Positions 9,120-38,410 of a stretch of DNA of 64,000 nucleotides are shown here, piece by piece (positions within the stretch are counted from its first letter, which is position 1; the number at the start of each line of letters is the position of its first letter). The notes beneath the pieces were generated by a model, which saw only the letters and a program-made list of their open reading frames with translations, had not been told where the DNA came from and ran no database searches. The stretch is taken from positions 62,001 through 126,000 of the forward strand of contig JAHDHX010000001.1 of NCBI GenBank assembly GCA_020631075.1. Direction: 5' to 3'. The position numbers were made by a program, and so were the translations under genes. This DNA comes from Candidatus Altimarinota bacterium. GTDB taxonomy: Bacteria > Patescibacteriota > Gracilibacteria > UBA4473.

Positions 9120-10166
9120 ATGACTGGGCCAGAACTGGTGCTGGGGATAGAAACGTCGTGTGATGACACGGCGGCGGCCGTGGTGCGCGGGGGGACGGAG
9201 GTGCTGAGCCAAGTGAAGCACAGCCAGGGCCAGCACGCGACCTATGGCGGGGTGGTGCCAGAGCTGGCGGCGCGGTTGCACGCGGAGATGCTGCCCCGAG
9301 TGGTAGACCGTGCCCTGGCGGAAGCGGGGGTGACGTGGGGGGAAATAGACGCGGTGGCGGTGACGCAGGGGCCTGGGTTGCAGCCGTGCTTGCTGGTGGG
9401 AACGACCTATGGGAGTGTGATGGCGCAGCTGAAGGGAATACCGCTGGTGCCGGTGCATCACATCCATGGGCATATAGCTAGTGTGCGGCTCAACCAGCGG
9501 GGTGACTGGCCGTTGCCCGCGCTGTGCCTGACGGTGGCGGGGGGGCACACGCAGTTGCACCTCGTGCGGAGGTGGCTGGACGTGGTGCGACTGGGGCAGT
9601 CGCGGGATGATGCGCTGGGGGAGGTGTATGATAAGACGGCGAAGTACCTCGGGCTGGGGTACCCTGGGGGGCCTATCATCAGCCAGTTGGCTGACCAAGG
9701 TGATGGGGGGCGGTTTGCGTTGCCGCGGCCGTACCTTGGGAAGGGATCGTTGGAGTTTTCGTTTTCGGGCCTGAAGGCGGCGGTCAAGCGGCACTGTGAG
9801 CAGGCGGAGGTGATAGACGATGCGTTTCGTCGTGACATGGCGGCGTCGTTTCAGCGGACGGTGGAGGCGGTGCTGATAAAAAAGCTGGGCTGGGCACTGG
9901 CGGCGCACCCTGCGGTGCGGTCGATGTTTTTTGCGGGGGGGGTGTCGGCCAATCGGCAGCTGCGCGCACTGCTGGGGGGGTGGGCGGCGGAGCGGGGACT
10001 GGAACTGGGGGTGCCGAGTGAGATAGCGCTGAGCACAGACAATGCGGCCATGATAGCGGCGTCGGGGTGGCTGTGGGCGGTGGAGCGGGGACTGGCGCGG
10101 GCCCCGCGCCATGTGGAACCCAAGGGGCGGTGGGAGATGGGGGAGTGGCTGGGGGGAAATAGCTAG
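9120..10166 (+). CDS. tsaD: tRNA N6-adenosine threonylcarbamoyltransferase TsaD
   Basis: TsaD (Gcp/Kae1) transfers the threonylcarbamoyl group to A37 of ANN-decoding tRNAs, with TsaB and TsaE, which are not in this window. The 348 residues show the ASKHA-fold phosphate loop LGIETSCDDTAAAVV at the N-terminus, GGVVPELAARLHAEML, HHIHGHIASV with metal-ligand histidines, TVAGGHTQL and FAGGVSANRQLR, all diagnostic for the family. ATG 9120 is preferred over GTG 9114, which adds only two residues. The substrate is represented nearby by the tRNA-Thr gene at 50.3 kb. A structured repeat element begins about 18 bp after the stop codon. Confidence 0.95.
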   Translation: MTGPELVLGIETSCDDTAAAVVRGGTEVLSQVKHSQGQHATYGGVVPELAARLHAEMLPRVVDRALAEAGVTWGEIDAVAVTQGPGLQPCLLVGTTYGSVMAQLKGIPLVPVHHIHGHIASVRLNQRGDWPLPALCLTVAGGHTQLHLVRRWLDVVRLGQSRDDALGEVYDKTAKYLGLGYPGGPIISQLADQGDGGRFALPRPYLGKGSLEFSFSGLKAAVKRHCEQAEVIDDAFRRDMAASFQRTVEAVLIKKLGWALAAHPAVRSMFFAGGVSANRQLRALLGGWAAERGLELGVPSEIALSTDNAAMIAASGWLWAVERGLARAPRHVEPKGRWEMGEWLGGNS

Positions 10167-10183
10167 GCAGTCTTGATATAACG

Positions 10184-10345
10184 GTGTTAGAAAAGTGATA
10201 GATTGAAAGAAGAAATCTCGAACAAAAATGAATCTTTTTCGCGAGGGTACGCTTGAGAACTGCAAAAGGTACGAAGGTACCTTTTGCAAACCTCGCACTC
10301 CCCTCACATGAAATCTCCTATTTTTGTTTCGAGACCGTTTATGTC
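10184..10345. repeat. Structured repeat element, copy A (nested hairpins)
   Basis: This stretch between the convergent tsaD and Cys-rich protein genes folds as three nested stems. The outer arms are TCTCGAACAAAAAT (10216-10229) and its complement at 10320-10334, with one bulge. The middle stem is GCGAGG (10241-10246) with CCTCGC (10291-10296). The apical hairpin is GCAAAAGGTAC/GTACCTTTTGC (10262-10272/10277-10287) with a GAAG loop. The motifs AAATCTC, TTTTTGT and CGAGAC recur in the same order in the element at 38.2 kb. It may act as a bidirectional terminator, a mobile miniature element or an RNA; the sequence alone does not decide. Confidence 0.5.
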
Positions 10346-10353
10346 GACACTAC

Positions 10354-12015
10354 CTAGTCTACCACTTCGTTGTTGTAGACGTCTTCGGAGACGATTTGCT
10401 CGGGGCGGTCGGGGTGGTAGGGGGTGCGAAGGGGGACGCCTGAAACGGAGCAGGGGCGGTCGTGTAACTCCCGCGGGAGACGAAGAGCGAGACGGTCAGC
10501 GTGGCGGGCCCAGAAGGATTTGCGGGGGAGGGGGAGGGCCATGTCGCGGTAGAACTTGAGTTCTGATTTTTGCAGTTTGAAGTTGCGGCCCGTGTCGGGG
10601 CACTGGAGCATTTGCTGGGTGATGTCGGCGGGGATGTCGCTGGCGCTGTCAGGGAGGGCGATGGTCTGGGGGATGGTTTCTTTGGGGTTGGTGTCTTGCC
10701 ATTTGTAGCCTCGGGCGAGCGCCTGGCTGCGGGTGAGGGGGAGATAGTCTTGGGCGTGGGAGTGGTTGTAGTAGAAGGGGGAATCTTTAATCGGGAAAAA
10801 TTCGCCCCACTCACCCGTGGAGCGCATATGCTCGATGATTTTTTTGGTCAGGTCTTGGTATTCGGCTTCGGAGTATTGCTGGTTGAGGATGCGGAATTTG
10901 GCTTTATTGACCCCGACGCACCCGAAGAGGTGCTCGGAGGACTGGCAGTAGAAGCAGTAGCGGAGGAATTTGTTGTTGTTGAGGCAGTGGGTGATGGCGA
11001 TGTTGTCATAACAAACGTAGCCGCTGGTGGCGCACTCGTAGAGGAGTTCGGCGCCGTCGCCGACTTCGGTGCAGTCGATGCAGGTTTTGGCGTCGTCAAA
11101 GGCTTGGGTGACGTAGGCACAACCCCACAGGCGTGAGGAGTCGAAGCATTCGTGGGAGTCTTTGGAATGGGTGAGGTAGTTGCCGGTGACGTTTTCGTTT
11201 TGGATGCCTTCCATAAACCGATGGGGGAAGCGCTGCACAAACTGCTGAAAGTGGGCCCGCAGGGGCGACAGGCCAGAGTAGGTGTCGAGCCGAAGGGCGG
11301 CGAGCTTGGCTTGGTACTCCTCTTTGGTGCATTTTTCGTTCATGAAGTAGTACTGCTTGTTGCGGAGATTAACGCAGCCGAAGCAGTCGTGGCAGCCGAT
11401 GCAGTTTTTAAGGAAGGCGGAAGAGGAGCAGTTGTGGCAGTTTTGTAGAAATTTGCTGTCGTAGCAGCTGACGCAGTCGATGCACTCGTAGCAGAGCTCG
11501 CACGAGCGGAGGCGGAAGCAGTCGCAGCAGTTTTGGCAGGAATTAATGGAATAGCTGTAGTAGCAGTCCCAGTTTTTGTCGGAGTCGAAGACGAAGTAGC
11601 AATTTTTATTCTTCCCAGCGTAGTTGGTGTAGTCGCTGTTTTCGTCGTATTGCGGGGTGCGTTGCAGGTTGGGCCGAGGGGCGACTTGTAGGAGGTCGTG
11701 GAACTGGTCGAAGAAGGGGCGGTGGAAGTCGTAGTCACGGCCAGTGGCGAGCTGGTCCCATTGGTCGGTATTCCAGAGGTGGATGTCCATCACGGGGTGG
11801 GCGAACTCGGGTGGGTAGTGGCTGAGGATGGGTTTACCCGAGTGGCAGCAGGTGGTGCGATAGAACTCTAACTGGTTTGACCAGGCCATGCGCCGACGGG
11901 CGCGTTCGTCGGGGTGGAGGGTGGGGGTGGGGACGTCGAATTTTTGGTAAAATTCTAGATCGGCTTCGCGGACAGTGAAGGAGCGGCCAGAGACGGGGCA
12001 GGTTTTGGTTTGCAT
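10354..12015 (-). CDS. Cys-rich zinc-ribbon repeat protein (CPR-type, function unknown)
   Basis: A 553-residue protein with about 40 cysteines and no recognised enzymatic motif. The N-terminal ribbon starts CPVSGRSFTV and continues through WSNQLEFYRTTCCHSGKP. The centre (about residues 130-370) repeats short units of the type YxxCxxCxxC and CxGCxxLxNKQYYFMNE, apparently a solenoid of Cys-paired turns. A second ribbon module (CPDTGRNFKLQK, PDRPEQIV) closes the protein. Related proteins are, to my knowledge, widespread in CPR genomes and often carry the wrong label CaiB/BaiF. Metal or disulfide-stabilised scaffolding is plausible but unproven. A homologous fragment is at 781-960. The start ATG at 12015 lies next to an AT-rich 116-bp divergent promoter region shared with the TrmB gene. 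Confidence 0.8.
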   Translation of the reverse strand: MQTKTCPVSGRSFTVREADLEFYQKFDVPTPTLHPDERARRRMAWSNQLEFYRTTCCHSGKPILSHYPPEFAHPVMDIHLWNTDQWDQLATGRDYDFHRPFFDQFHDLLQVAPRPNLQRTPQYDENSDYTNYAGKNKNCYFVFDSDKNWDCYYSYSINSCQNCCDCFRLRSCELCYECIDCVSCYDSKFLQNCHNCSSSAFLKNCIGCHDCFGCVNLRNKQYYFMNEKCTKEEYQAKLAALRLDTYSGLSPLRAHFQQFVQRFPHRFMEGIQNENVTGNYLTHSKDSHECFDSSRLWGCAYVTQAFDDAKTCIDCTEVGDGAELLYECATSGYVCYDNIAITHCLNNNKFLRYCFYCQSSEHLFGCVGVNKAKFRILNQQYSEAEYQDLTKKIIEHMRSTGEWGEFFPIKDSPFYYNHSHAQDYLPLTRSQALARGYKWQDTNPKETIPQTIALPDSASDIPADITQQMLQCPDTGRNFKLQKSELKFYRDMALPLPRKSFWARHADRLALRLPRELHDRPCSVSGVPLRTPYHPDRPEQIVSEDVYNNEVVD

Positions 12016-13765: not shown

Positions 13766-14320
13766 ATGAAAAAATTAACATATCTGGCGGCGGCGTTGGG
13801 GGTGATGGTCTGGGGTGGGGGGGTGATGGCGCAAGCCGAAACAGAAGAGACGGGGGTGACTGGGGAAACGGTGGTGCTGGAGATGTATCACGGAGATGGG
13901 TGTCCGCACTGTGCGGCCCAGCTGGCGTGGTTGCCGAACCTTGAGGAGGCCTACCCCGAACTGGAAATAGTGAAGTATGAAGTGTGGAAAGACGAAGAAA
14001 ATCGCCAAAAATGGGTGAACCGTATGGCCGAGCTGCAGTATGACGGGCGACAGGGCGTGCCCTTCAATGTGATCGGGGGGGAGGTGGTCAATGGGTTTAA
14101 TGCGGAGGCGTTGCTGGACATACTCAAACCCTTGCTGGGGGAACCTGCGGTGGCGAAGGCGCAACTGCTGGAAGCGCAACAAGCGGCTCGCGCGCAAGAG
14201 GTGGGGGAAGCGGCGGCCGCCAAGCCGCTGGAAGGCACCAACCAGTGGGTGATATGGGGGGTGCTGGGGTTGGTGGTGCTGGGGTTGATATTTTTCTTGA
14301 TGCCGAAGCAGGAGCGCTAG
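13766..14320 (+). CDS. Secreted, membrane-anchored thioredoxin-like protein
   Basis: A 184-residue exported protein: signal peptide (MKKLTYLAAALGVMVWGGG, cleavage near AQA), a thioredoxin-fold domain with the redox motif CPHC in YHGDGCPHCAAQ, a cis-Pro candidate in GVPFNVIGG, and a C-terminal transmembrane helix (about residues 158-178) ending in a short basic tail. It probably exchanges disulfides outside the cell, for instance for the Cys-bearing surface proteins encoded nearby. No DsbB or VKOR partner is adjacent. ATG 13766 gives the clean signal peptide; in-frame upstream starts would only add residues before it. An intrinsic terminator follows 55 bp downstream. Confidence 0.8.
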   Translation: MKKLTYLAAALGVMVWGGGVMAQAETEETGVTGETVVLEMYHGDGCPHCAAQLAWLPNLEEAYPELEIVKYEVWKDEENRQKWVNRMAELQYDGRQGVPFNVIGGEVVNGFNAEALLDILKPLLGEPAVAKAQLLEAQQAARAQEVGEAAAAKPLEGTNQWVIWGVLGLVVLGLIFFLMPKQER

Positions 14321-14374
14321 GGAGTGCGCATAAATTGGAAAAGTAGAAAGAAGGGGACAAGACCGTGAGAGTAC

Positions 14375-18275: not shown

Positions 18276-18390
18276 TTAGGGAGTGTGAACAAATTTTTGC
18301 CTTGATCCATCAAGGCGGCAAATACGTGTCCATTTTTCGCTCAAAAATCTCTTTTTTTTCATCTCAAATCAATGTGTTACACTCCCTTAA
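18275..18390. repeat. Inverted-repeat-bounded intergenic element, possible copy C
   Basis: TTTAGGGAGTGT (18275-18286) and ACACTCCCTTAA (18379-18390) are complementary at 11 of 12 positions and bracket the gap between the FecR-protein stop and the FemAB start. Inside is a near-palindrome, GCCTTGATCCATCAAGGC (18299-18316), and AAAAATCTCTTTTTTTT, which resembles a motif in the elements at 10.2 and 38.2 kb. The right arm contains the FecR-gene stop codon. Relation to the other two is weak; it could simply be a 5' UTR structure of the FemAB gene. Confidence 0.3.
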
Positions 18391-37092: not shown

Positions 37093-38220
37093 ATGACGCA
37101 GCGTGATATGGCACAGGTGGCGGCGATCTTGGGCTGGCATTTTGCTTTGGGGTTGACGTATCGTCGGTACCGTGCGGTGGAAGACTACTTTGCGGGGGAC
37201 TGGGTGCGAGCGTGGGGGGCTTCGGGGTTGGAGCTGCGGCTGACGAAACTGACAAACAGAGACATCGACCGACTGGACGCTCGCCGTAGCCAGACCAACC
37301 CAGAGCGGATAGCAGAGCAGGTGGCTGCGGTGGGGGCGACGGTGGTGCTGCATGATGATGAGGTGTATCCAGCGCCGTTGCGGGAGATAGCCCAGCCGCC
37401 AGCGATCTTGCTGGTGCGGGGGGAGTTTTCGCCAGAGGATTGGCCAGCGATCGCGGTGGTGGGCACCCGCAAGATGAGTAGCTACGGCAAGCGGGTGGTG
37501 GAGCGACTGATCCCGCCTTTGGCGCGGCGGGGGGTGACGGTGGTGTCGGGGCTGGCGCTGGGGGTGGACCTGGCCGCGCACCAAGCCGCCACCCAGGCGG
37601 GTGGACGGACGATAGCGGTGATGGGGTGTGGGATTGATCAGGTGTATCCGCTGCGGCACGAAAAGTATGCGCAGGAGATCTTGGCGTCTGGGCAGGGGGT
37701 GATCGTATCGGAGTATTTGCCCGGAGTAGTGCCTGACCCGAAGAACTTCCCCGTGCGGAACCGAATAGTGGCGGGGATGACCCAAGGGGTGCTGGTGGTG
37801 GAGGCGGCGCGGCGGTCGGGGAGCTTAATAACCGCAAGGCTGGCGAATGAAAGCAACCGCGAGGTGTTTGCGGTGCCCGGAGAGATCTTTAGCGAGGTGA
37901 GTGAGGGCACCCATGACCTGCTGCGGGCGGGGGCGACGCCTGTGACGGACGTCGAAGACATCTATGCGGGGCTGGGGTGGGGGGAGGTGCCTGCGGGGGA
38001 CGGTGAGTCAGCACCTACGGTGGAGCGCCCCGCGCCTGAGACCCTCGAAGGGCAAGTGCTGGCCCTGTGGGCGCATGACCGCAAGTGCCACATAGACGAG
38101 CTGGTGCGGCGGGCGGCTGGCAAGCTGCCGCAGCCAGTGGTGACGTCGCATTTAATGATCCTCGAAGTGCGGGGGGTGGTGAGCCATGAGGGGGGGCAGG
38201 TGTATGTGCGGCATTGTTAA
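37093..38220 (+). CDS. dprA: DNA-processing protein DprA
   Basis: DprA (Smf) protects incoming single-stranded DNA during natural transformation and loads RecA. The 375 residues include an N-terminal helical domain, the Rossmann-like core with VVGTRKMSSYGKRVVERL, VSGLALGVDLAAHQAA, GCGIDQVYP and RNRIVAGMTQGVLVVEA, and a C-terminal winged-helix domain (about 315-375). With the prepilin peptidase, a TfoX-C-like protein and recF in the window, this points to DNA uptake by type IV pili, a plausible lifestyle for a CPR cell with limited nucleotide synthesis. The stop codon TAA (38218-38220) lies inside the left arm of a 16-bp inverted repeat that bounds the next intergenic element. Confidence 0.95.
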   Translation: MTQRDMAQVAAILGWHFALGLTYRRYRAVEDYFAGDWVRAWGASGLELRLTKLTNRDIDRLDARRSQTNPERIAEQVAAVGATVVLHDDEVYPAPLREIAQPPAILLVRGEFSPEDWPAIAVVGTRKMSSYGKRVVERLIPPLARRGVTVVSGLALGVDLAAHQAATQAGGRTIAVMGCGIDQVYPLRHEKYAQEILASGQGVIVSEYLPGVVPDPKNFPVRNRIVAGMTQGVLVVEAARRSGSLITARLANESNREVFAVPGEIFSEVSEGTHDLLRAGATPVTDVEDIYAGLGWGEVPAGDGESAPTVERPAPETLEGQVLALWAHDRKCHIDELVRRAAGKLPQPVVTSHLMILEVRGVVSHEGGQVYVRHC

Positions 38221-38410
38221 GGAAACACTGATAAATTCAAAATGACGTGAAAACAATTGAGAAAGAGTCGCCATCAAAAAAGGATCTTTGAGGCGCTTTT
38301 TCACTCCAGAACCGTCACGGGGTCGAGAGACCCCGTGAGAACCTGTCGCAAAAAATCATCCCCAAATCTCTCTTTTTGTGATTGGCGAGACTTCATCAGT
38401 GTTTCCTTAA
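38217..38410. repeat. Structured repeat element, copy B, with 16-bp terminal inverted repeats
   Basis: A 194-bp unit between dprA and der. TTAAGGAAACACTGAT (38217-38232) is perfectly inverted at 38395-38410. Nested inside are a second stem (about 38266-38282 with 38372-38392) and an apical hairpin TCACGGGGTC/GACCCCGTGA (38315-38324/38329-38338) capped by GAGA, a GNRA-type loop. The motifs AAATCTC, CTTTTTGT and GCGAGAC, and GATCTTT on the other arm, match copy A at 10.2 kb in order and position, while the hairpin bases differ but stay paired. It may be a MITE or a structured RNA; the left repeat supplies the dprA stop codon. Confidence 0.6.

Follow-up and report, generated by a model that had tools for sequence, protein, structure and literature searches.

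The two structured elements located at 10.2 and 38.2 kb of the window (the whole stretch of 64,000 nucleotides that was analysed) belong to a set of about 51 copies in their own genome, some of them cut or interrupted, which were divided in three families (A, B and C). They are probably non-autonomous, MITE-like mobile elements, with a structure that works mainly at the DNA level and an orientation set by replication.

Elements and families

Both window elements show a fold well beyond that of their dinucleotide shuffles, with z scores of -5.1 for the element at 10.2 kb and -6.4 for the element at 38.2 kb (0 of 200 shuffles in each case). The initial annotation had described them as real structured elements which share ordered motifs, with 4-base apical loops (GAAG and GAGA) and apical stems unrelated in sequence but perfectly paired, and all of this was confirmed (Table 1). 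Its limits for the first element, 10184-10345, were nevertheless too short: the element extends to the ends given in Table 1, where it is flanked by TA.

Table 1. Positions of the elements and their parts in the window.
Feature	Position	Strand	Description
Family A element	10166..10354	+	between convergent tsaD (+) and a - strand gene
TA flanks of the A element	10164-10165 and 10355-10356		
Left terminal inverted repeat region, A element	10166..10186	+	GGCAGTCTTGATAT...
Conserved internal loop, left side, A element	10222..10239	+	CAAAAATGAATCTTTTT
Apical hairpin, A element	10261..10288	+	stem 12 bp, loop GAAG
Conserved internal loop, right side, A element	10311..10326	+	AAATCTCCTATTTTTG
Family B element	38221..38406	+	between dprA and der/engA; dprA stop TAA at left end
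4-bp TTAA flanks of the B element	38217-38220 and 38407-38410		
Left terminal inverted repeat, B element	38221..38238	+	GGAAACACTGATAAATTC; pairs with 38389-38406
Conserved internal loop, left side, B element	38275..38293	+	CAAAAAAGGATCTTTGAGG
Apical hairpin, B element	38315..38338	+	stem 10 bp, loop GAGA
Conserved internal loop, right side, B element	38362..38378	+	CCAAATCTCTCTTTTTG
Family C copy, left half internally deleted	18277..18390	+	apical hairpin retained at 18299-18316
Family C left-end fragment	14318..14352	+	at stop codon of gene 13766-14320

BLAST searches of the own genome (G000; 1,463,433 bases in 50 contigs, 95.9% complete) found 10 copies of family A, 85-100% identical to the 10.2 kb element once reverse-strand self matches were excluded, and 20 copies of family B, 88-100% identical to the 38.2 kb element. 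Among the latter, one is interrupted and two are cut by contig ends. Family C was found as the insert of the interrupted B copy (L045), and a search with this insert gave 21 full copies and additional fragments. The elements have a length of about 180-192 bp and no conserved gene: the longest closed open reading frame of each copy encodes 12-59 amino acids and differs in length between copies. All of the 49 copies examined are intergenic and none lies inside a called gene, according to gene calls made with a codon-usage script trained on the window. A tandem pair of B copies was observed at the end of contig C3 (L040, G000:C3:229484-230330) and a further B copy at the start of contig C40 (L044, G000:C40:1-687); the assembly is probably broken at these tandem copies.

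The three families show a common architecture, which consists, from the outside, of a terminal stem, a one-sided unpaired left bulge of about 30-40 nt, a middle stem, a conserved internal loop, an upper stem and an apical hairpin with a 4-base loop. The constant parts are the two sides of the internal loop, AAAAA..ATCTTT on the left and AAATCTCYYTTTTT on the right. The left bulge keeps its position while its sequence is variable, and the apical stem varies in sequence among A, B, C, J and the relatives, with a 4-base closure in the folds.

Ends, target duplications and movement

Within each family the copies terminate at the identical base, and terminal inverted repeats of about 13-18 bp are present. 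Families A and C begin with GGNAGTGTTNACA and finish with its complement, and family B begins with GGAAACACTGATAAA. Among copies with both ends, TA is found at both flanks in eight of nine A copies and in 14 of 21 C copies. The flanks of B copies are identical over 4 bp in eight of 17 cases (TTAA, TAAA, CTAG, TTTA, TTGA, TAAC and TATA were found) and over 3 bp in three more, and the other six show no clean duplication. In family B and relatives the duplications are AT-rich and measure 3-4 bp. Furthermore, the C copy of L045 interrupts its B copy at GTAAAAAATC with TA on both sides, while this site is intact in the other B copies. Family C has therefore moved, and the locus is a direct record of an insertion with a 2-bp duplication. 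The elements are short, multicopy and without a conserved gene, and show terminal inverted repeats and target site duplications, as bacterial MITEs do.

The position just after the stop codon of a + strand gene, also reported in the initial annotation, holds for both window elements (tsaD ends at 10166 and dprA at 38220) but is not a general rule, as 12 left and 10 right ends, 22 of the 98 ends of 49 copies, are located at stop codons. YTAR is a frequent target, and for this reason a stop codon that receives an insertion is restored as TAG; in the window A element, each end gives a TAG stop codon to its neighbouring gene.

Elements in other genomes

The covariance-model search of the genome and its relatives that the initial annotation had proposed was carried out with a model built from 47 own-genome copies. 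Matches (E 0.01) were found in eight of 99 genomes, G000 included, and strict filters retained full-length copies in G017, G014, G013 and G005, which belong to the same family as the own genome and to four different genera. In addition, a pattern scan of named genomes allowed nine copies to be read in JALVIB, a Gracilibacteria assembly. The model matches L111 and L112, in class-level relatives, were rejected together with L118, since they seem to be chance matches or hairpins of another kind. A Peregrinibacteria contig (L177, 965-1143) shows like ends around a different and GC-richer interior. The element pattern was found in none of the viral contigs.

Genome G014 shows 174 sites which resemble the B end (seven in the control), mostly single decayed ends in a 400 kb sample. 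Many single remnants TTAAGGAANNNCTGATAAATAAACT were also read there (L183-L202), often near gene ends by eye. Genome G083, a low-GC relative of another family, shows elements of about 160 bp which end in GGAAGGTCTGAAAAA and are flanked by TTAA (L110); these were excluded from the counts. Its transposase frames contain TGA codons, from which we infer that it reads TGA as sense. Because the ends of its elements are similar, the group may predate the family.

Orientation, strand and replication

GC skew of the window is 0.23-0.39 in each 4 kb block, although genes are found on both strands. The plus strand of the element is the G-rich strand in 40 of 49 copies, a count which leaves out the two copies cut by contig ends, and in 38 of the 42 with clear skew (p 6e-8), clear meaning an absolute flank skew of at least 0.1; the seven copies below 0.1 were set aside. 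Agreement was 8/10 in family A, 13/15 in B, 16/16 in C and 1/1 for the interrupted B copy, and a short-flank version of the count gave 43/50. The A, B and C elements themselves have a GC skew near zero, and the bias therefore does not come from a match in composition. In relation to genes, orientation is random: 27 of 48 upstream genes (27:21) and 20 of 47 downstream genes (20:27) have the direction of the element, the flanking genes being split 38:43 between strands. Therefore, orientation follows replication, whose direction is inferred from GC skew, and not transcription. The comparison between replication (38/42) and transcription (27:21) offers a simple test of whether selection on the structure acts at the level of DNA or of RNA.

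The two strands also differ in folding. With RNA parameters the minus strand has the better fold in 60 of 64 sequences, and DNA parameters give the same count (60 of 64). Its excess is above the mean obtained by dinucleotide shuffling of each sequence in 40 of 45 (RNA) and 41 of 45 (DNA); this control took nine sequences or fewer from each set (45 of 65). By the usual rule the G-rich strand is the lagging-strand template; on this basis, it is the strand with the weaker fold that is exposed.

If the elements are MITE-like, a transposase acting in trans would recognise the ends and move the element, and the interior structure would matter as DNA, either as a substrate or landmark of transposition or for stability at the replication fork. 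The fork could set orientation through loss of those copies whose strong-folding strand is in the lagging-strand template, or else through polar insertion, as PMC5371812 describes for Tn7 and IS200/IS605. The orientation data suit either of the two.

Bacterial MITEs are usually viewed as relics of deletion, with an interior that can decay freely. An interior conserved across genera would not be expected if the elements were plain deletion derivatives, and this argues against the MITE reading. It is conceivable, though we consider it doubtful, that the machinery recognises the folded minus strand and not a sequence, probably at the replication fork, with the shape kept across genera and insertions oriented along replication. 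Such 'structure-first' mobile DNA would mean that nearly all the stem sequence, and even much of the terminal repeats, is replaceable.

Because the minus strand folds better, a role of its RNA was kept as a rival. The element would then be a mobile repeat selected for the folded minus-strand RNA, transcribed by read-through or from its own promoter, as a functional or parasitic RNA or as a regulator of neighbouring mRNAs such as that proposed for Correia/NEMIS and ERIC. The strand difference with RNA parameters, the higher number of G-U pairs that the consensus folds of the minus strand show in A, B, J and the G14 set, and the conservation of the internal loop and of the 4-base apical loops would agree with this. 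However, the difference is also seen with DNA parameters, transcription of the minus strand would mostly run against the fork, orientation is random to flanking genes and not to replication, and no conserved promoter was seen by eye. Rfam 15 gave only a tRNA in the window at the gathering score, and no match for six loci at E up to 1. We therefore regard a selected RNA as unlikely. The initial annotation had proposed an undescribed repeat family or an RNA class: the repeat family stands, with three families in one genome and homologues in other genera, but an RNA class is not specifically supported, since the copies behave as transposed DNA.

Paired changes in the fold

Pairing was analysed on 42 shared pairs, taken from the family folds and an alignment of 47 of the 51 copies; the apical stem lies outside these pairs. 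The four copies omitted are L025, which has lost its left end, L044 and the second L040 copy, which are cut by contig ends, and the interrupted L045. RNAalifold on a MAFFT alignment of the three families predicted only 21 pairs because the apical stems are offset by a column or two, and the pairs common to the family folds were used instead. In the own-genome alignment (47 copies), 90.5% of the cells pair, in relation to 74.6% in shuffles and 41-58% with slid partners, and covariation was 0.39 versus 0.15. The number of pairs with changes on both sides (22 versus 20.2) and of further pair types (45 versus 49.1) was not convincing, and covariation in this genome rests on few independent changes because there are only three families.

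The cross-genus alignment (A5) contains 18 chosen sequences, six of them from the own genome. Here 91.7% of the cells pair (38-60% with slid partners), changes on both sides are found in 29 of the 42 pairs (20.3 in shuffles) and covariation was 0.48 versus 0.13, pair counts which lean towards the model structure since the alignment was fitted to it. Single-sequence folds made without A5 show the same architecture in most cases; in L114/L167 and L108 the plus-strand fold is partly different. Pairs that change on both sides, together with the homologues in other genera, support the selection on structure first suggested by the two apical stems. An interior fold kept across genera with many paired changes suggests that it is needed for mobility or survival.

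Paired changes could also arise from hairpin-templated correction, one arm being copied from the other in replication, and not from structural selection. The third position of the terminal inverted repeats is A-T, G-C, T-A or C-G, and the arms match at variable positions, as correction would also give. This process should nevertheless also tend to remove unpaired features, and yet the left bulge and the internal loop keep their place across the families and genera compared. Nor would it be expected to make the two strands fold differently, and this explanation is improbable.

Search for a mobilising transposase

The search of the assemblies gave no autonomous partner that shares these ends; the own assembly, with its 50 contigs, may miss multicopy insertion sequences. 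A scan of the own genome with the terminal repeat patterns (up to 1 mismatch) showed no element of greater length. A single long span with perfect ends, 2.27 kb in length, was seen in the G014 sample of 400 kb; it contains an NrdG-like gene and serS, both named from a reading of their translations.

TA duplication is the mode of IS630. For this family (PF13358), the own genome has one gene, which is free of internal stops and lies in an AT-rich island, and G017 has a multicopy element with nine partial matches, several at contig ends. The right ends of IS630 in both genomes finish in TAGCTA before the TA, unlike GGNAGTGTT or GGAAACACTGATAAA, and IS630 was rejected as mobiliser. In G017 (L212, L214-L216) the copies read were often at contig ends and showed ...TTGAATTAGCTA before the TA at the right end. 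An IS4/IS5 partner (PF01609, DDE_Tnp_1) was also rejected, with 0 matches in G000, G014, G017, G013 and G005 and two in G083.

The elements might instead be REPIN-like, with a Y1 (HUH/RAYT) transposase moving them through single-stranded DNA. Y1 enzymes are not known to act on terminal inverted repeats with duplication of the target, and GTAG is found near an end in only 14 of 47 copies (A 7/9, C 7/21, B 0/17). Genes of this type (PF01797) were initially associated with the elements, being present in all four same-family genomes with model-found copies, but the association was dropped after a control in which 15 of 20 same-family genomes, and 11 of the 15 relatives without model matches, were positive; furthermore, the search gave none in the own genome, where the copies are most numerous. 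A Y1 origin is accordingly very unlikely, even though it would account for a strand-biased orientation, a bias described for IS200/IS605 in PMC5371812.

Finally, two unrelated Rho-independent terminators similar by chance, which strong hairpins after stop codons might suggest and to which the initial annotation would have reduced the pair if further copies and covariation were lacking, are refuted, with practically no probability left, by the copies and covariation that were found, the homologues, the nested insertions and the low proportion of ends at stop codons.

Comparison with known systems

According to PMC2229807, bacterial MITEs show terminal inverted repeats, TA ends and long hairpins, and TA is duplicated by RUP and IS630-Spn1. 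The same source describes RUP (S. pneumoniae), Correia/NEMIS (Neisseria) and ERIC (enterobacteria), to which the present elements are similar in their size of less than 200 bp, terminal inverted repeats, TA ends, short target duplications and long stem-loop. They differ from these in that several families of one genome, with others in further genera, have one asymmetric fold with replaced stem sequences, and in that their orientation follows replication. In addition, the ends of RUP are common to an IS630 element, while those of the Gracilibacteria elements differ from IS630 ends.

The bcr1 repeat of the Bacillus cereus group is also short, mobile and intergenic, and its sequence can fold; it belongs to another phylum and the likeness, in these same properties, is by description only. 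REPINs are likewise short, mobile and palindromic, but unlike REPINs with their RAYT, the present elements carry terminal inverted repeats and duplicate their target, lack a constant GTAG tag and show no association with RAYT. An orientation correlated with the direction of replication is described in PMC5371812 for Tn7 (TnsE), IS200/IS605 and clamp-binding IS families, all of which encode their own transposition proteins, whereas the present elements do not.

Listings of the literature on Gracilibacteria, Peregrinibacteria and Patescibacteria gave no description of such elements. The present set adds a group of mobile elements to the Gracilibacteria, for which none was found described in the literature searched, and in relation to known MITEs it is unusual in its asymmetric fold, kept across genera with replaced stems, and in an orientation bound to replication.
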